Shown here one piece after another: positions 1,845-10,601 of a stretch of 11,142 bases of DNA. Location of the stretch: assembly GCA_905214855.1 (NCBI GenBank), contig CAJMNU010000043.1:1-11142 (forward strand), given 5' to 3'. The notes beneath the pieces were generated by a model, which was given only the letters and a program-made list of their open reading frames with translations, did not search any database and was not told the origin of the DNA. Source of the DNA: an uncultured bacterium. Lineage in GTDB: Bacteria; Bacillota; Clostridia; Lachnospirales; Lachnospiraceae. The position numbers and the translations under genes were made by a program. How positions within the stretch are numbered: the stretch's first letter is position 1; each line of letters starts with the position of its first letter.

Positions 1845-3419
1845 ATGAAAGAGGATTCTAAAGAAATAGGATTGCGCCTTTTGGAAAAGGGCAAAAGAGG
1901 GATTTTCCGAATGATTTTCAGCCGTTCGGGCTTGATTCTTGTCTTGCTTGCTATACAAGTTTTGTTCTTGTTTAGTATTTTCCATTGGTTTGAGGCGTTT
2001 TTGCCTCATATTTATGGTGGTGTTGTAATCTTTACTGTGTTTATGGTGTTGTATTTACTCAACAGTTCTATGGATCCAACATCGAAAATCACATGGTTGG
2101 TAGTTGTTATGCTTTTGCCTGTATTTGGAGCTTTGCTGTTCCTTTATACACAGAAGAACTTTGGTCACCGCACACTAAAAAATCGTTATGCTCAATTAAA
2201 TAAAGAAACGGAAGAATCTCTAAAGCAAGATCCAGAAACAAAGAAAGCATTGCAACAGTCTGATCCAGGAGCAGCAGCTCTGTCACATTATGTGCAGCGC
2301 AGTGGATGCTATCCGGTTTATGATCATACATCTGTAACTTATTTTCCTCTTGGAGAAGATAAGTTTCAGGAGATGCTGATCCAGTTGGAAAAGGCAGAGC
2401 ATTTTATCTTTCTGGAATATTTTATTGTAGATGAAGGTGAAATGTGGGGAAAGATTCTGGAAATTTTGGCACGAAAAGTAAAAGAGGGAGTCGATGTACG
2501 AATGCTCTATGATGGTACTTGTGAACTCTCTACGTTGCCTCATGATTATCCTCAGAGACTTCGAAAACTGGGTATTCAATGTAAAATGTTTGCTCCTATT
2601 AAGCCTTTTGTGTCCACACATTACAATTATCGAGATCATAGAAAGATTTTAGTGATCGATGGAAAGATAGCTTTTAATGGAGGTATCAATCTGGCAGATG
2701 AGTATATTAATACTTATGAAAAACATGGTCATTGGAAAGACACTGCTGTTATGGTGAAAGGTGAAGCTGCCCGCAGTTTTACTCGAATGTTTTTACATAT
2801 GTGGTTTTTAGATGAAAAAGAAACAGATTTTGATACATTTCTGAATGTACCGATCACGCCAGAGGCAGAAAATGGTTTTGTCATGCCTTATGGTGACTGC
2901 CCTCTGGACAAGGATAAGGTAGGAGAACAGGTCTATATAGATATGTTGAATCGGGCGCAGAATTATATTTATATTATGACACCTTATCTGATTTTAGATG
3001 GTGAGTTAGAAAACGCTTTAAAATATGCTGCAGAGCGTGGTGTTGATGTTCGGATCATGCTTCCAGGTGTTCCGGACAAGTATATTCCTTTTTCTCTTGC
3101 TTTGACACATTATAAGGCTTTATTGGAATCTGGCGTAAAAATTTATGAATATACACCTGGTTTTATTCATGCAAAGGTTTTTGTATGTGATGATCGAGAG
3201 GCTGTTGTTGGAACGATCAATCTGGATTATCGCAGCCTGTATCATCATTTTGAATGTGCGACTTATATGTGGGGAACAGATTGTATTCCTCAGATTTTAG
3301 ATGATTTTAAAGTTACTCAGAAAAAATGCCGAGAGATTACTGTTGATATGATCAAGACAGAACCTTTTAAGCGTCGGATGCTTGGCTTTGTGGCAAAAGC
3401 TATCGCACCGTTGCTGTAA
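1845..3419 (+). CDS. cls: Cardiolipin synthase (phospholipase D family), first copy
   Basis: A 524-residue membrane enzyme expected to join two phosphatidylglycerol molecules into cardiolipin plus glycerol. The N-terminus has hydrophobic segments at about 28-48, 57-73 and 83-101, followed by two phospholipase-D domains. Both HKD motifs are complete: HRKILVID (His265, Lys267, Asp272) followed by FNGG, and HAKVFVCD (His442, Lys444, Asp449) followed by GTINLDYRS. Length and layout fit bacterial Cls enzymes; the extra N-terminal helix before the usual pair is a feature of this clostridial type. AGGAAAGGAG ends 8 nt before the ATG at 1845; the ATG at 1841 is out of frame. A second synthase starts 25 nt after the stop, so the two are almost certainly co-transcribed. 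Confidence 0.95.
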   Translation: MKEDSKEIGLRLLEKGKRGIFRMIFSRSGLILVLLAIQVLFLFSIFHWFEAFLPHIYGGVVIFTVFMVLYLLNSSMDPTSKITWLVVVMLLPVFGALLFLYTQKNFGHRTLKNRYAQLNKETEESLKQDPETKKALQQSDPGAAALSHYVQRSGCYPVYDHTSVTYFPLGEDKFQEMLIQLEKAEHFIFLEYFIVDEGEMWGKILEILARKVKEGVDVRMLYDGTCELSTLPHDYPQRLRKLGIQCKMFAPIKPFVSTHYNYRDHRKILVIDGKIAFNGGINLADEYINTYEKHGHWKDTAVMVKGEAARSFTRMFLHMWFLDEKETDFDTFLNVPITPEAENGFVMPYGDCPLDKDKVGEQVYIDMLNRAQNYIYIMTPYLILDGELENALKYAAERGVDVRIMLPGVPDKYIPFSLALTHYKALLESGVKIYEYTPGFIHAKVFVCDDREAVVGTINLDYRSLYHHFECATYMWGTDCIPQILDDFKVTQKKCREITVDMIKTEPFKRRMLGFVAKAIAPLL

Positions 3420-3444
3420 TTGGTAGACAAAGCAGGGGGTACTA

Positions 3445-4848
3445 ATGTTTAAAATTATCTTATTGGTTATATATATTGCTACTATTTTAGCGGTCATTTT
3501 TGTAGAGAGAAAGAATCCGACAGAAGCTTTACTTTGGGTGTTTGTTATGGTGTGTATTCCGTATGCAGGTGTTTTGCTTTATCTGGTTTTTGGCAGTACC
3601 ACTGCGATCAAGTTGACATCTGTTTTTAGAAGGAAAAAACTTAGTAAGCGCCTGCCAGCTGCAAAGATATCACAGGATTTATTGACGGGACAACAAGTTT
3701 CAGAAGAAGATCTTCAGGTTATGCAGTTCAATGAGAATTATAATAACAGTCCTGTTACATGTTATGAGAATTATCAGCTTTTTATCACTGGTGAAACACA
3801 TTATCGTGCATTATTTGAGGATATTAAAGGGGCAAAAGAAAGTATTTATGTGCTGTTTTATACGATCCATCATGATGTGATGGGGGAAGCATTAGTCAAA
3901 TCCTTGACTGAGAAGGCAAAAGAAGGTGTCACTGTTTTGGTGATGTGTGATTTTATAGCCAATTTGTCTACTCCTAGTAAAATGTTTAAACCTTTAGTGG
4001 ATGCAGGAGGAAAGGTGATTCGTGTTAAACCATATCTGACGCATTATCGCAGTCATAGAAAGATTGTTACTATCGATCATAAAATTGGATATATCGGTGG
4101 TATGAATATTGGAAAGCAGTATGCAAATCTGGCTGAAAAGAAAAATCCATGGCGTGATACACAAATCCGTCTGACAGGAGCTTGTGTTGCAACACTGGAT
4201 GCCTATTTTATGACAGATCTTTTATGTGCGGTACGCCGAAAAGATTGGGAAGATGTGGTGAAATATATGGAATCGATCCAGCTGCCGCCACAGAGGAGAA
4301 CACCAAATTTATGTCAGTTTGTTGTTGGTGGCGTGGATAATGATAAAGAAGCTGTTAAGATGAATTATTTGAGCATGATCCGCAGTGCAAAAAAGAAAAT
4401 AAGAATCCAGTCACCCTATTTTATACCCGATGCTTCTGTTTTAGATGCCCTTAAAACAGCAGCTGCATCTGGTGTGGAAATTGATCTGATGATTCCAGGT
4501 ATTAAAGCAAGTTTCTTCCTTGACCCTGTGACAACATATTATGCTGGTCAGATTATGGAATTTGGTGCTAAGGTCTATAAATATCATGGATATATTCATG
4601 CAAAAACCATGACGATTGATGATGAGCTGTGTTGTATTGGATCTGTAAATATGGATATGCGTTCTTTGATGGTAGATGATGAGATATGTGGTATTTTCTA
4701 TGCAAATGATTTAGTTCAGGACTATATCCATATTTTTGAAAATGATATTTTAAATTGTGATCCTTATATCTATGATCAGTTCTTGAACAGAGGGCAGAAA
4801 GAGAAGTTTGTAGAATGTATTTTTCTTCCATTTGCTCCTTTAATGTAG
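3445..4848 (+). CDS. cls: Cardiolipin synthase (phospholipase D family), second copy
   Basis: A 467-residue paralogue of the preceding gene. Two N-terminal membrane helices (about 3-20 and 29-49, the usual Cls number) precede two phospholipase-D domains with intact catalytic motifs: HRKIVTID (His204, Lys206, Asp211) followed by YIGG, and HAKTMTID (His385, Lys387, Asp392) followed by GSVNMDMRS. It is clearly diverged from the first copy and shorter at the N-terminus, so this is an old pair rather than a recent duplication. The start is supported by AGGGGG about 5 nt upstream, weaker than the first gene's site. Both enzymes look active. They may differ in substrate (phosphatidylglycerol, phosphatidylethanolamine or glycolipid), in regulation, or act as a heteromer; the sequence does not say which. 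Confidence 0.94.
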   Translation: MFKIILLVIYIATILAVIFVERKNPTEALLWVFVMVCIPYAGVLLYLVFGSTTAIKLTSVFRRKKLSKRLPAAKISQDLLTGQQVSEEDLQVMQFNENYNNSPVTCYENYQLFITGETHYRALFEDIKGAKESIYVLFYTIHHDVMGEALVKSLTEKAKEGVTVLVMCDFIANLSTPSKMFKPLVDAGGKVIRVKPYLTHYRSHRKIVTIDHKIGYIGGMNIGKQYANLAEKKNPWRDTQIRLTGACVATLDAYFMTDLLCAVRRKDWEDVVKYMESIQLPPQRRTPNLCQFVVGGVDNDKEAVKMNYLSMIRSAKKKIRIQSPYFIPDASVLDALKTAAASGVEIDLMIPGIKASFFLDPVTTYYAGQIMEFGAKVYKYHGYIHAKTMTIDDELCCIGSVNMDMRSLMVDDEICGIFYANDLVQDYIHIFENDILNCDPYIYDQFLNRGQKEKFVECIFLPFAPLM

Positions 4849-4942: not shown

Positions 4943-5902
4943 ATGTCACAGGAATTAACGGAACTTGAATTTCCTCAACAGAATCTTCAACAAAAGACTT
5001 CCTATACAGAGGGCTACCATTATTACATTTATGATACAGAATATCATGCAGGACGACGTGAACAGGCGAATCTTATGTATGATGTGTTTCAGGCATTATC
5101 TGAAAAATATCCCCAAAAGGTTGCTGATATGGCATTGGTATGCACATCTGTTTCAAAAAAAAGTGATGTATTATCTCCAGGAACACATCATTCTAATCCT
5201 TCGTACTTTAGAATGTGCAGGGAATACACGATATTAGGGACAGAGTATCTTGTTGGAGCTAGTTATGGATTGGATGCCAAGATTGCTGAAATATATAAAA
5301 TGATTGAGTGTTGTGGTGAAGATAGGGAAATTTTCAGATTGGATGGATACGAGCCAAAGAGCAAGAAGTCTGATATAGTTGATGAAAAAGAGAAGAGTGA
5401 GAAGTCTGACATAGTTGATAAAGAAGAGAAGAGTGAGGCGTTTGATACGGCTGATATGGATGAGAAAAATGAAGAAATTCAGGAAAAGACTTCTGTAGAT
5501 GCGTTTGTCTATGAATTATGGGGAGTAAGGCATACGGCAGACAAACTTTCCACTCTGATGCATGATGTATTTGATTTTATTGCAGATAAATATGCGGATA
5601 AGATACCAGACATCGCAAAAGATGATTTGATTACTTTTGTGGCATACAAAAGAGCAGTGGACAATCAGGAAATCTCAATGAGCAAACGGAGTTATTTTAG
5701 GGCTAAGAAGGAACATGATGTTCAGGGAGAGGCGTACTATGTAAGCACAAGTTATAATCGCCAGCAGGGAATAGGACAGCTCAAGAAGATGCTGGAGAAA
5801 TGTGAAGAAGATGATAATTCTTTGAAAATCATTTCTTATCCGCAAAAAGTGGTACATGGAAGAAGAAAAAGAAAGGCAGGTCTGGAAGAACTGCTTGGAT
5901 GA
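4943..5902 (+). CDS. Unrecognised protein with two copies of a ~100-residue module and a repeat linker
   Basis: I do not recognise this 319-residue family. No signal peptide or membrane helix is visible. It is built from two related modules: A at about 25-126 and B at about 187-290. They align on MYDVFQALSEKYPQKVADMA / MHDVFDFIADKYADKIPDIA, then SYFRMCREY / SYFRAKKEH, then GTEYLVGASY / GEAYYVSTSY, and end in IYKMIECCGED / LKKMLEKCEED. A charged linker (139-174) is three 12-residue repeats of the type KSxKSDIVDxxE. The C-terminus is basic (HGRRKRK), compatible with nucleic-acid contact. GAGGAG ends 6 nt before the ATG. Its stop overlaps the ATG of the PD-(D/E)XK nuclease gene, so the products probably act together, perhaps as specificity or sensor subunit and nuclease. 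That partnership is inference. Confidence 0.85.
   Translation: MSQELTELEFPQQNLQQKTSYTEGYHYYIYDTEYHAGRREQANLMYDVFQALSEKYPQKVADMALVCTSVSKKSDVLSPGTHHSNPSYFRMCREYTILGTEYLVGASYGLDAKIAEIYKMIECCGEDREIFRLDGYEPKSKKSDIVDEKEKSEKSDIVDKEEKSEAFDTADMDEKNEEIQEKTSVDAFVYELWGVRHTADKLSTLMHDVFDFIADKYADKIPDIAKDDLITFVAYKRAVDNQEISMSKRSYFRAKKEHDVQGEAYYVSTSYNRQQGIGQLKKMLEKCEEDDNSLKIISYPQKVVHGRRKRKAGLEELLG
5357..5464 (+). repeat. Three tandem 36-nt repeats inside the gene at 4943-5902
   Basis: Units run 5357-5392, 5393-5428 and 5429-5464, each encoding 12 residues (KSKKSDIVDEKE, KSEKSDIVDKEE, KSEAFDTADMDE). The first two units are nearly identical and the third has diverged. Because 36 is a multiple of three, gain or loss of a unit keeps the frame, so linker length between the two modules could vary between strains. 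Confidence 0.85.
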
Positions 5903-7137
5903 AAGGGGATGTGAGACATATGACGATTGAACAGGCAGAAGCCTTGATCGCAAGCCAATCTTTTCAGGAATTGAAATATTTTCAGGAGAAAAGCAATGTT
6001 TTTACTATAGTAGGACAGACACATACTGAGCATTGGCATAGTTCATTTATAAAGTGGCTTTTAGAGCCTAATTCAAGTTTATATTTAGGTCATTATCCCC
6101 TTGTAAGGTTGCTGACACTTTATATGATTAAGAATGAAAATGCTGATTTATCATTGAAACAGGTTTTTGACATGAATTTGGATAATGTCAGATTTCAGAC
6201 AGAAAAGACATTTATGACTTCGGACAAGAAAAAAAGATCTATTGATGTCTATGGAGAGAGTGATGAGCTTATTCTGGTCATTGAAAATAAGGTCAAAGCA
6301 CGGGAAAATATGAATGGTACTCAAATCGGGCAGACTCAGGATTATCATGATTATGTGAAAGCAAATGCCAAGAAAGGGCAAAAAATAATATGTTTATTTA
6401 TCACTCCAGATCCGAAACAAAAACCATATGATAAAAGTTATACTCAGATCACATATCAGGAATTTTATGATTATGTGATCGCAAAATGTATAGAACATCC
6501 TCAGCTTGGTCAAGAGGGAAGATATCTTCTGGAACAGTATGCAAATAATCTGAGAGAACCTGTGCATGGTTCGCCTATGGCATTGGTAAACATTGGATTG
6601 TGTAAACGAATATATGATGAATATAAGGAACAGTTAGATGAGATTTTTATTGATGTAGAATCAAGTAATGATTTTAAAAATGATAGCAGACTGACCTGTG
6701 TTGTGTATTGCCATTATCAAAATGTTTTTGATGAAATTTATCTGTCTTTGGATGAAAAGCATTATGGACGGACTCCAAGATCGGTAATAAAAAGAAAAGT
6801 GGTGAGTTTTACTGATCTATATCAAGCTGGGAAACTTAACGATGGTACACAGTTTGTTTTAGAGTATGATGGTGTGAAACATTATGCGATAGCTGAGTAT
6901 GATAAGGAGGAACAGGAGTGTTATATGCTCTTGTTGGACGAAAACCACCAGCCATATCACAATTCAAAAGGAGAGAAGATCGGTTATTATACAACGTCAT
7001 CTCAGGCAGGTATGGATAGTATAAACTTATATAGAAAAATGCACCACATTGATAAAAAAATTGAGTCATTGAATGGTCCAGCTTACTGGAAGACCAAGGA
7101 TGGAATTACATTGAAAACATTGATTGATTCCTTATAA
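5899..7137 (+). CDS. PD-(D/E)XK nuclease family protein with possible RAMA/DUF4357-like C-terminus
   Basis: A 412-residue protein whose first half matches the PDDEXK_4-type nuclease family. Visible elements are EHWHSSFIKWLLEP (44-57, the conserved E/HS..WLL.P opening), the catalytic Asp116 in RSIDVYG, Glu129 and Lys131 in LVIENKV, and GQTQDYHDYV (144-153). This is the standard metal-dependent D...ExK core, so DNA cleavage is likely. Residues about 302-385 (DLYQAGKLNDGTQF, then EYDGVKHYAIAEYD, ending YYTTSSQAGMDS) loosely resemble RAMA/DUF4357-type small beta domains thought to read DNA modification; this is a weak by-eye similarity. Its ATG overlaps the upstream stop (ATGA). A second in-frame ATG at 5920 has AAAGGGG about 11 nt upstream and may be the real start. 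A restriction or defence role is inferred. Confidence 0.85.
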   Translation: MKGDVRHMTIEQAEALIASQSFQELKYFQEKSNVFTIVGQTHTEHWHSSFIKWLLEPNSSLYLGHYPLVRLLTLYMIKNENADLSLKQVFDMNLDNVRFQTEKTFMTSDKKKRSIDVYGESDELILVIENKVKARENMNGTQIGQTQDYHDYVKANAKKGQKIICLFITPDPKQKPYDKSYTQITYQEFYDYVIAKCIEHPQLGQEGRYLLEQYANNLREPVHGSPMALVNIGLCKRIYDEYKEQLDEIFIDVESSNDFKNDSRLTCVVYCHYQNVFDEIYLSLDEKHYGRTPRSVIKRKVVSFTDLYQAGKLNDGTQFVLEYDGVKHYAIAEYDKEEQECYMLLLDENHQPYHNSKGEKIGYYTTSSQAGMDSINLYRKMHHIDKKIESLNGPAYWKTKDGITLKTLIDSL

Positions 7138-7165: not shown

Positions 7166-7269
7166 GATTGGAAGATTCACAAGTTTACTTTGAAATAAGA
7201 AAAGAGAAATACTAAAAGATTATGAAAAAATAGAGTTTGCTGTTCATATGATAGTATAAGATGGAGAGG

Positions 7270-7311
7270 GGGTGTCGCAAAATCATCTAATTTGATGATT
7301 TTGCGACACCC
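7270..7311. repeat. 18-bp perfect inverted repeat (terminator-like or IS-end-derived palindrome)
   Basis: GGGTGTCGCAAAATCATC (7270-7287) and its exact reverse complement (7294-7311) enclose a 6-nt loop, TAATTT. It lies in the 181-nt gap between two converging genes, 8 nt beyond the stop of the minus-strand membrane gene. Neither side has a clean T-run (downstream on plus: TCATTTATT), so a bidirectional terminator is possible but not classic. The GGGTGTCGCAAAA end resembles terminal repeats I associate with IS1182-type elements, which would make this a tiny non-autonomous relic; no target duplication is visible. Confidence 0.7.
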
Positions 7312-7318
7312 TCATTTA

Positions 7319-7732
7319 TTAGTGTGTATTATACTGAAAATAATTTTTTCCAAATAAAATTCCGGCTAAGAGCAGAGAGGAACCTAAACCAGTATAAAAT
7401 ACTGCGATAAAGCGTTCTGGAGCAAGAGAAGATGCTCGCAGATATATACCGCCACTCATCATGATTGCCATAATAATAGATGATTTTATATCAAAAAATT
7501 TCATAAAAAAGTGTCGTTTTTCTTTATAATTTTGGATTCGCTCTGTATGTTTTTTTACAAGGTGTCCAAAAACAAAATATTGAAAAATAGCAAAAACAAG
7601 GATAGAGAGTACAACATTTATGATTGAAATATAGGGTGGATAGGACAGGATTCCTATTCTTACAATATTAAATCCTGCAAGAAACCATACTATACAGGCA
7701 ATGAGTAATAATGTTTTTTTCTTTACTTTCAT
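7319..7732 (-). CDS. Small hypothetical membrane protein with four predicted helices
   Basis: A 137-residue protein with a basic start (MKVKKK) and hydrophobic segments at about 7-27, 36-56, 84-99 and 109-127. A basic, polar loop (58-80, HLVKKHTERIQNYKEKRH) separates the two hairpins and probably faces the cytoplasm. I know the opening TLLLIACIVWFLAGFNIVRIG as a pattern in uncharacterised clostridial membrane proteins, without known function. AAAGGAGG stands 10 nt before the ATG at 7732, a very good ribosome site. It is transcribed alone, opposite to its neighbours, from a near-perfect promoter with an overlapping palindromic operator, so strong inducible expression is expected once a repressor leaves. 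No regulator gene is in the window. Transporter, stress or efflux accessory roles are all possible and none is supported. Confidence 0.85.
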   Translation of the reverse strand: MKVKKKTLLLIACIVWFLAGFNIVRIGILSYPPYISIINVVLSILVFAIFQYFVFGHLVKKHTERIQNYKEKRHFFMKFFDIKSSIIMAIMMSGGIYLRASSLAPERFIAVFYTGLGSSLLLAGILFGKNYFQYNTH

Positions 7733-8281: not shown

Positions 8282-8382
8282 AGAAGAGAAACAATCCATT
8301 TGAACTTATGGTAAGGATTTGTTGTGTCTTAAATGTCAGAATGGATAACATTGTTAAACACTGGAGAAAAGAGGTTTTGCTT

Positions 8383-10254
8383 ATGATTGTATATTCTGGT
8401 ATAAAAAGTGATTTTCTTGTAGCTGTTGAAGCAGATGCTATTGCTTCTGAAATTGAAGAAAATATTTATAAAAAAATGCATAAAAGAACAGCATCCAATG
8501 AGTTCCGTTCATGGGAAAATTCATTGGAGTATATGTATAAGGTTTTGAATGATAGAGAAATTCCAGAAGATGCAGGCATAGCTATTGAATATAACATTCC
8601 ACAAACCTCAAAACGTGTTGATTTTATTATTTCTGGCTATAATGAAAATAAAGATCCGAATGTGATTATTGTTGAATTGAAACAGTGGGATAAGATTAAG
8701 GCTGTTGAAGGACAAGATGCATTGGTGGAAGCATTCACAGGTGGAGCGCTTCGTAAGGTAGTACATCCTTCTTATCAGGCATGGTCTTATAAGACGATGA
8801 TTGAAGACTATAATTCACATGTTCAGGAATACAGTATTATGTTACATCCTTGTGTGTATCTTCATAATTATCGAAAATCTAAGCCAGATAAATTGGAACA
8901 ACCTCAGTATAAAGAATATTTGGATGAAGCGCCTATTTATGGACGTGGTGAGGTATTAAAGTTTCGAGACTATATTAAAAAAGCTGTGGTCTATGGTGAT
9001 AAAAAAGAAATACTCTATGAAATGGATCATGAAAAGATAAAACCATCAAAAAGTTTGCAGGATTCCATCAAAAGTATGATTGAAGGTAATCAGGAATTTG
9101 TTATGCTGGATGAACAGAAAGTGGTTTATGAAGAAATACTTCTTAAGTCAATGAAATGCATGAAAGATCAGAGAAAACGTACCATTATTGTAGTTGGAGG
9201 TCCTGGAACTGGCAAGAGCGTTGTTGCAATTAATCTTCTGGCAAAATTAACACAGGAAGGACAGTTTGTACAGTATACATCCAAGAATAGTGCACCAAGA
9301 AATGTATATGCAAAAAAACTGACTGGATATAGAAAGAGCAGCATTCAAAATATGTTTAAAGGATCTGGTTCATATATAGAAGTAGAAGCAAATTTAATTG
9401 ATACCATTTTATGTGATGAAGCTCATAGACTGAATGAAAAATCTGGACTGTACAAAATGGCAGGAGAAAATCAGGTGAAGGAAATTATCAATTCATGTTT
9501 GTGTAGTGTGTTTTTTATTGATGAAGGTCAGAGGGTAACATTAAAAGATATAGGAAGTGTAAGTGAAATAAAAAAATGGGCAGAAAGTTTGGGAGCAGAA
9601 GTGTCAGAAATGGAATTGGTATCTCAATTTCGTTGTAATGGATCCAATGGTTATTTGGCTTGGCTGGATGATACATTAGAGATCAGACCAACAGCAAATC
9701 ATGATTTATGGGATATAGATTATGATATTCGAGTCTTGGATTCGCCAAAAGAAGTTAGAGATTTAATTATTGAAAAAAATAAGTCTTCTAATAGAGCACG
9801 AATTCTTGCTGGATATTGTTGGGAATGGATTAAAAGTGGTAAGAGAAAGACGGATGTGCATGATATTGTGATTGGTGATTTTGGTATGAGTTGGAACTTG
9901 GATAATACGCAGACATTTGCAATTGATCCAAATTCAGTAAATGAGATTGGATGTATTCATACCTCACAAGGATTGGAATTTGATTATGTAGGAGTAATTA
10001 TTGGGGATGATATGCGATTTGAAGATAATCATATAGTGACTGATTTTAATAAACGAGCAAAGACAGATCAGTCCTTAAAGGGAATCAAGAAATTATATAA
10101 AGAAAATCCCCAAAAAGCTTTGAAAGAAGCAGATGAGATTATCAAGAATACATATCGTACATTGATGACCAGAGGCATGAAAGGATGTTATATTTATTGT
10201 ACAGACTCTAATTTAGCAGATTATCTTAAAAAAAGTATTGGAAAAGGGGAGTAA
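8383..10254 (+). CDS. DUF2075 / Schlafen-group-3 helicase with N-terminal PD-(D/E)XK nuclease domain
   Basis: A 623-residue protein. Residues 65-101 carry a PD-(D/E)XK core: IEYNIP (Glu69), RVDFII (Asp80) and VELKQW (Glu98, Lys100). From about 265 follows a superfamily-1-type ATPase: Walker A GGPGTGKS (272-279), Walker B LCDEAH (343-348), motif III FIDEGQR (378-384), motif IV SQFRCN (414-419), motif V HTSQGLEFDYVGVI (526-539), and motif VI YRTLMTRGMKG (591-601). This is the DUF2075 architecture (COG3410, now called Schlafen group-3 helicase). It likely moves on DNA or RNA and cuts it; defence use is inferred. The frame is open from 8308, but GAGG at 8371-8374, 8 nt before the ATG at 8383, and the family-like start MIVYSGIKSDF favour 8383. 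All catalytic residues are present. The MazG-like gene starts 5 nt after the stop. Confidence 0.92.
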   Translation: MIVYSGIKSDFLVAVEADAIASEIEENIYKKMHKRTASNEFRSWENSLEYMYKVLNDREIPEDAGIAIEYNIPQTSKRVDFIISGYNENKDPNVIIVELKQWDKIKAVEGQDALVEAFTGGALRKVVHPSYQAWSYKTMIEDYNSHVQEYSIMLHPCVYLHNYRKSKPDKLEQPQYKEYLDEAPIYGRGEVLKFRDYIKKAVVYGDKKEILYEMDHEKIKPSKSLQDSIKSMIEGNQEFVMLDEQKVVYEEILLKSMKCMKDQRKRTIIVVGGPGTGKSVVAINLLAKLTQEGQFVQYTSKNSAPRNVYAKKLTGYRKSSIQNMFKGSGSYIEVEANLIDTILCDEAHRLNEKSGLYKMAGENQVKEIINSCLCSVFFIDEGQRVTLKDIGSVSEIKKWAESLGAEVSEMELVSQFRCNGSNGYLAWLDDTLEIRPTANHDLWDIDYDIRVLDSPKEVRDLIIEKNKSSNRARILAGYCWEWIKSGKRKTDVHDIVIGDFGMSWNLDNTQTFAIDPNSVNEIGCIHTSQGLEFDYVGVIIGDDMRFEDNHIVTDFNKRAKTDQSLKGIKKLYKENPQKALKEADEIIKNTYRTLMTRGMKGCYIYCTDSNLADYLKKSIGKGE

Positions 10255-10259
10255 GGAAT

Positions 10260-10601
10260 ATGAGGCAGAGAACCATTAATCAGATTTTAAAATTTAGAGA
10301 TGATCGTGATTGGAAACAGTTTCATAATCCCAAGGATTTAGCAATTTCAATTTCCTTAGAAGCAGCAGAATTATTGGAAATTTTTCAGTGGAGTGCTGAA
10401 GATACCATTTGCTCAGAAAAAATTGATAAAATTAAAGAAGAGCTGGCAGATGTTGTAAATTATTGTGTGTTAATGGCAGATGCTTGTGGACTGGATTTGG
10501 ATGAGATTATAAAGGAAAAGCTGAAAAGCAATGATGAAAAATATCCGATTGAAAAGGCGAAAGGGAGTAAGGAAAAATATAATAATTTGAAATCAAAATG
10601 A
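10260..10601 (+). CDS. MazG-like / dCTPase-like nucleotide pyrophosphohydrolase
   Basis: A 113-residue all-alpha enzyme that should hydrolyse a nucleoside triphosphate to the monophosphate plus pyrophosphate. The metal-binding pattern ExxE...ExxD of the MazG superfamily is clear: Glu34 and Glu37 in SLEAAELLE, then Glu61 and Asp64 in EELADVVNY. The block RDWKQFHNPKDLAISISLEAAELLEIFQW resembles the RS21-C6/dCTPP1 branch, which prefers dCTP and modified dCTPs; the substrate is inferred from that resemblance. The length suits a single domain that works as a dimer or tetramer. GGGGAG at 10246-10251 within the upstream gene's end is 8 nt before the ATG, and only 5 nt separate the genes, so translation is coupled with the nuclease-helicase. 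A housekeeping role in clearing nucleotide pools is the alternative. Confidence 0.9.
   Translation: MRQRTINQILKFRDDRDWKQFHNPKDLAISISLEAAELLEIFQWSAEDTICSEKIDKIKEELADVVNYCVLMADACGLDLDEIIKEKLKSNDEKYPIEKAKGSKEKYNNLKSK

Follow-up and report, generated by a model that had tools for sequence, protein, structure and literature searches.

Among the described systems, those closest to the locus reported here are Thoeris, type IV restriction, SeqA (a protein that reads methylated DNA) and PDC-S26, a phage defence candidate of PADLOC. Phage proteins with an RyR domain bind or degrade cyclic ADP-ribose (cADPR) signals, and six of eight homologs tested showed binding, according to a 2026 preprint (PMC13232231). 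RAMA-Mrr and GIY-YIG-RAMA fusions have been noted (PMC11037411), and the reading of N6-methyladenine by RAMA is debated (PMC11037411; PMC9963953). Among the papers listed by a literature search, none names PDC-S26. Here we analysed a stretch of 11,142 nucleotides from an uncultured Lachnospiraceae bacterium (contig CAJMNU010000043.1; hereafter, the window), in which two adjoining genes encode a protein with two related modules, which we call the reader protein, and a nuclease of the PDDEXK_4 family that together likely recognise and cut foreign DNA. As judged from gene comparison, the pair is a reduced derivative, with readers and nuclease only, and not the typical system, because its relatives add a TIR domain and mostly belong to a locus of four genes, two of which encode RyR-type proteins.

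As in Thoeris, the relatives join a TIR protein, in which the position of the catalytic Glu is kept, with RyR-type proteins. However, the eight proteins from relatives that were compared with PADLOC gave no ThsA match and a weak ThsB match (14.2 bits in locus L001); sensing in the relatives would be carried out by DNA-reader modules, with RyR proteins and the nuclease as effectors, and the window itself has no TIR domain. The pair resembles type IV restriction in that a nuclease is coupled to a putative reader domain for modified DNA, but here a separate protein with two predicted SeqA-fold modules comes first and the relatives lie within a TIR-RyR locus. Unlike SeqA, the reader protein has no Pfam SeqA match, carries two tandem copies of the module, has a nuclease partner and does not keep Asn150, which, together with Asn152, we take to be a DNA contact of SeqA: the Asn150 position is Ser in both modules, and Asn152 is kept only in module B. 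The window nuclease matches five PADLOC PDC-S26 models (best, 97 bits), but none of them runs beyond residue 252, which leaves the RAMA-fold domain uncovered.

The reader protein and its nuclease partner

The two open reading frames (ORFs) that a sequence-only reading of this DNA had paired were confirmed, and their features are as follows:

4943..5902, + strand: ORF of the reader protein, 319 amino acids, from the ORF list; TIR-less, with two predicted SeqA-fold modules and a linker
5009..5311, + strand: module A, residues 23-123; the predicted model shows a SeqA C-domain fold
5498..5800, + strand: module B, residues 186-286, a paralogue of module A by BLASTP and the module A profile
5899..7137, + strand: ORF of the nuclease, PDDEXK_4, 412 amino acids; the ATG at 5920 is the start that agrees with the conserved N-terminus
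6244..6291, + strand: catalytic core of the nuclease, D116 (6244-6246), E129 (6283-6285) and K131 (6289-6291), from residue check and alignment
6796..7134, + strand: C-terminal domain of the nuclease, residues 300-412, modelled with a RAMA fold

The two related modules of about 100 residues that had been described in the first protein were recovered, with 35% identity over 83 columns (BLASTP E 1.9e-14), a global score of 118 when none of 1000 shuffles exceeded 9, and detection of module B by the module A profile at 52.9 bits. In the AlphaFold model of the reader protein, the predicted local distance difference test score (pLDDT) was about 85-95 in the modules and under 50 in residues 140-184, within the linker. 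The profile and structure look that had been proposed for modules A and B yielded, on this predicted model, the SeqA C-domain fold for both of them; we filed them as SeqA-like in fold rather than as SeqA because no Pfam family matches at E up to 1. The protein had been called unrecognised, which holds for sequence libraries, since Pfam (E up to 1), PADLOC and NCBIfam gave no match and PHROG a single weak one (E 0.02), but not for the fold, recognisable as SeqA-like on the model. Foldseek by itself gave no confident match for the reader protein, and a search of solved structures by sequence with the module protein family returned nearly all TIR structures, owing to the TIR part of the alignment. 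A helix-turn-helix reading of the reader protein was discarded, since the PHROG match is weak and about half of the matched stretch (residues 111-212) is low-confidence linker.

The nuclease scored 60.6 bits against PF14281 (PDDEXK_4; cut-off 22.3), and its D116...E129-x-K131 core, previously proposed to be intact, proved invariant in 34 of 34 aligned nucleases. Its C-terminal domain adopts a RAMA fold on the predicted model but scored 14.9 bits against the RAMA profile (PF18755; cut-off 35.2), and we treat it as a predicted RAMA fold and not as a member of the RAMA family. A search of solved structures by sequence with the nuclease gave a single match at E 0.088, taken as chance.

The 4-nucleotide ATGA overlap that had been put forward as a sign of tight coupling is present in the letters. 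Nevertheless, the true start of the nuclease may be position 5920, 17 nucleotides after the upstream stop, because 15 of the 17 genome relatives described below align to it only from residue 7-10 (L013 from 1 and L017 from 14) and codon 8 is an ATG (MTIEQAE...) located 11 nucleotides past an AAAGGGG stretch. Spacing between both genes in relatives, taken from longest-ORF starts, ranges from overlaps of 4-17 nucleotides to gaps of up to 64 nucleotides, an apparent 122-nucleotide overlap in L002 being the product of an extended ORF; thus, close coupling is conserved and the exact overlap is not. The most distant nuclease (L017, 7596-9224) has about 120 extra N-terminal residues that resemble DUF4357 by eye, with no Pfam match, and a reader may therefore be fused to it.

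Relatives of the pair carry TIR domains and exchangeable reader modules

A genome scan with the nuclease retrieved 17 loci, mostly from Lachnospiraceae or related bacteria; in 14 of them, the gene immediately preceding the nuclease is a TIR gene. Regarding the remaining three, the contig begins at the nuclease in L010 and inside the preceding gene in L015, and L017 (40% identity) has no TIR gene. The module type of the window is present in eight of these 14 TIR genes (only weakly in L016). Among the 11 genes directly preceding the nuclease that were scanned with TIR_2 (PF13676), seven exceeded the 28-bit cut-off, L002, L014 and L016 remained below it (23.2, 26.4 and 25.6 bits), and L011 had no Pfam match; a custom TIR profile found all 11, with L011 as the weakest (28.3 bits). 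Inspected by eye, all 23 aligned TIR domains of relatives retain the catalytic Glu position. When the custom profile was applied to 13 other PDDEXK_4 loci, up to 5 kb on each side, none had a TIR gene; six of these controls came from nuclease searches and seven from a Pfam search, two were under the Pfam cut-off, one contig measured only 3.4 kb, and a very different TIR could escape a profile built on this clade. Hence, the neighbourhood survey suggested earlier did reveal a constant partner, but one that is specific to this nuclease clade and not general to PDDEXK_4 genes.

A protein search with the reader, limited to 0.55-1.75 times the query length, which places longer TIR forms outside its reach, gave 13 relatives. 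Four of them (P0001-P0004; 75-98% identity) are TIR-less like the window protein, and the other nine, of 502-550 amino acids, have a TIR region first in the alignment, with a precomputed TIR_2 match in seven.

Behind the TIR domain, relatives carry modules of three types, I (the window type), II and III, in changing order. The 17 loci contain 16 TIR genes, 12 of which have at least two modules; there is one module in that of L007 and in the last of L009, and none in that of L004 and in the first of L009. Including the proteins from the reader search, the combinations I-I, II-II, III-III, II-I, II-III, III-I and I-III-I were observed. The type III stretch of L011 overlaps a DUF4357 match of 27.9 bits, below the cut-off of 38.4, and InlB-like repeats (PF09479) occur in L002, L003, L004 and L009. 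Comparison of P0011 and P0012 shows a clear block exchange, because they are near-identical in the reader part (232 of 242 residues shared) and divergent in the part before it (53 of 247).

A four-gene TIR-RyR locus in the relatives

The full locus has the order gene 1 (HD/RyR-like), TIR-reader, nuclease and gene 4 (RyR), and was found in nine of the 17 loci (L001, L002, L004, L005, L008, L012, L013, L014 and L016). With presence defined as 100 bits or more to custom profiles, 12 of the 17 loci have gene 1 (about 663 amino acids) and 11 have gene 4 (about 450 amino acids). Three incomplete loci lie at contig ends (L003, with a different gene at the place of gene 1; L010, without gene 4; and L015); in addition, L006, L007 and L011 have no gene 4, L009 no gene 1, and L017 none of the three other genes. 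This locus is likely an antiviral defence system.

The C-terminal RyR domain of the gene 4 product (PF02026, cut-off 27.4) was above the cut-off in L013 (33.3 bits), L009 (27.8) and the related L082 (38.0), and below it in L001 (18.9). Gene 1 scored under the cut-off in L001 (12.5) and L011 (14.6), with no match in L013; we call it RyR-like because its profile overlaps with gene 4 within the RyR region (E 1.4e-5). An HD motif (H...LFHD) was seen by eye in seven of seven aligned gene 1 proteins (seven of the 12 found), with no match to Pfam HD families, so that the term HD-like is by eye only. The gene 4 product is probably located in the membrane, as indicated by eye and by an approximate hydropathy count, in which two proteins showed one flagged region each.

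Ten additional TIR loci were compared, and four of them (L080 and L082-L084) contain a homologue of gene 1 or gene 4 but no match to this nuclease, which therefore seems to have been added to a broader TIR-RyR family. MORN-like repeats were seen by eye in L082. In L009 (3290-7983), three tandem TIR genes stand ahead of the nuclease, followed by the gene 4 homologue. A DUF2779 protein recurs beside the locus (L002, 10657-13440, with a WYL protein after it; L009, 125-1609), with similar starts by eye in L004, L010 and L011. Titles and abstract openings covered by the literature search, most subscription papers lying outside it, contained no TIR-RyR locus with this nuclease, and a text search of PMC9503650, PMC10853773 and PMC7159879 returned nothing on such a locus.

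The TIR-less form of the window

When the window was queried by tblastn with gene 1 and gene 4 of both L001 and L013, as well as with the L001 TIR part, no trace of the missing parts emerged (best E 0.79), and the TIR profile matched none of the window ORFs. In order to compare the window with a TIR locus, the proportions of nonsynonymous (pN) and synonymous (pS) differences are given separately and not as a dN/dS ratio, synonymous sites being saturated in most pairs. Against L001, the window nuclease had a pN of 0.151 at a pS of 0.82, and modules A and B (66% and 57% identity) had a pN of 0.173 and 0.270 at a pS of about 0.74. Identity to the nuclease of L011 was 68.4% for the window and 67.6% for L001. 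By these values, the window nuclease is as constrained as in TIR loci and not faster evolving. Since, in addition, the TIR-less form is common to four protein clusters (75-98% identity), it is probably functional.

Upstream DNA was also compared for signs of a recent TIR deletion. The highest local score, 30, came from L001; in the single shuffle control, run on L012, the score was 24 and the shuffle maximum 27. The DNA thus leaves the matter undecided, and this proof of a recent deletion was rejected.

The nuclease clade has a patchy distribution, with matches in four of 397 family-sampled genomes at E 1e-3 (including the centre genome itself and one at 26% identity) and in six of 391 genomes of a class-wide sample, all except the centre genome at 23-34% identity. 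Searches with both proteins gave no relative in viral contigs, a DNA search of plasmids gave no match, and a protein search of phages gave two nuclease matches, at 27% and 28%.

Proposed mode of action and alternative explanations

We give about even chances to the explanation that the pair is a TIR-less derivative of the four-gene TIR-RyR locus, whose reader senses DNA modification and steers the nuclease to cut foreign DNA. In short, we infer a modification-sensing restriction arm that would have been split from a Thoeris-like TIR-RyR system and would serve in reading, cutting and defence. The SeqA-fold modules would bind DNA and respond to a base modification such as N6-methyladenine or to the absence of it; reader and nuclease would act together, the nuclease cutting the DNA recognised by the reader, and phage or plasmid DNA would be restricted as a result. 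Where the locus is complete, the reader would also switch on the TIR domain, which would turn NAD+ into an ADP-ribose-type signal to be sensed by the two RyR-type proteins; in the window, the signalling arm would be gone and the DNA-cutting arm left. Sensing of DNA modification is the most economical proposal because the recognisable modules (SeqA fold, RAMA fold and DUF4357) have DNA and its marks in common. The earlier suggestion that the duplicated protein reads a ligand or a DNA state beside the nuclease agrees with the SeqA-like fold and the RAMA-fold nuclease, but the TIR domain and four-gene locus of the relatives were missing from that picture.

The absence of gene 1, the TIR domain and gene 4 could also mean that the pair is a leftover of the four-gene system, with ORFs still open but no longer functional. 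The reader begins with MSQELTELEF, which is similar to the start of TIR-bearing homologs (in P0011, MSQELIGLEYL), and an internal deletion is therefore suggested. However, both ORFs are intact with all catalytic residues present, the TIR-less form extends over several clusters down to 75% identity, and the nuclease is strongly constrained, which makes a non-functional remnant unlikely. We consider it similarly improbable that the binding partner of the SeqA-fold modules is not DNA but a small ligand or a phage protein, contact with which would free the nuclease as an abortive-response effector. Reader cassettes that vary and are exchanged would be expected when facing a changing opponent, InlB-like repeats occur among the modules of four loci and the presumed Asn150 contact of SeqA is not kept; on the other hand, those kinds of module that can be recognised (the SeqA fold and, by a weak match, DUF4357) are associated with DNA, and the nuclease beside them has a predicted RAMA fold of its own. 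Finally, it is very doubtful that the TIR-less reader acts in trans, either damping TIR-RyR genes at other genomic locations or serving them as an additional sensor. The tandem TIR set of L009 and the four nuclease-free TIR loci with a gene 1 or gene 4 homologue would be compatible with it, but TIR_2 has no match in the relative G149, where the chromosomal site is shared, though the pair is also absent from that site.

Returning to modification sensing, we propose tentatively, and with slightly less confidence than for the pair itself, a new class of immune locus in which exchangeable modification readers sit on a TIR domain, the TIR signal is passed to host RyR proteins and a RAMA-fold nuclease cuts, the window being a streamlined branch for reading and cutting. 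If true, host-side bacterial RyR-domain receptors for TIR signals would exist as a counterpart to the phage RyR proteins reported in PMC13232231, and interchangeable cassettes would allow the chemical state of DNA to act as a trigger for TIR domains. The pair would then offer a natural reduced form in which reading and cutting can be studied without the signalling arm.

Genes around the pair

The remaining features of the window are as follows:

1845-3419 and 3445-4848: two phospholipase-D type genes, by Pfam, upstream of the pair
7319-7732, other strand: small ORF, hydrophobic by eye, with no Pfam match over the cut-off
8308-10254: Schlafen group 3 helicase (Pfam E 9.4e-103)
10260-10601: MazG-like gene

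The chromosomal spot that carries the pair is variable, because G149 keeps both flanks (79.7% identity to window DNA over 1845-4846 and 75.9% over 10271-10581) but holds different genes in between. Further along, G149 has a D12 adenine methyltransferase. A long inverted repeat at about 7268-7313, between the nuclease and the opposite-strand ORF, has by eye the appearance of a two-way terminator. The Schlafen group 3 helicase of the window, with the MazG-like gene directly 3' of it, shows an N-terminal D...E-x-K stretch by eye; in the relative L100, a GIY-YIG + Schlafen group 3 helicase occupies the place of the window helicase, ahead of MazG.
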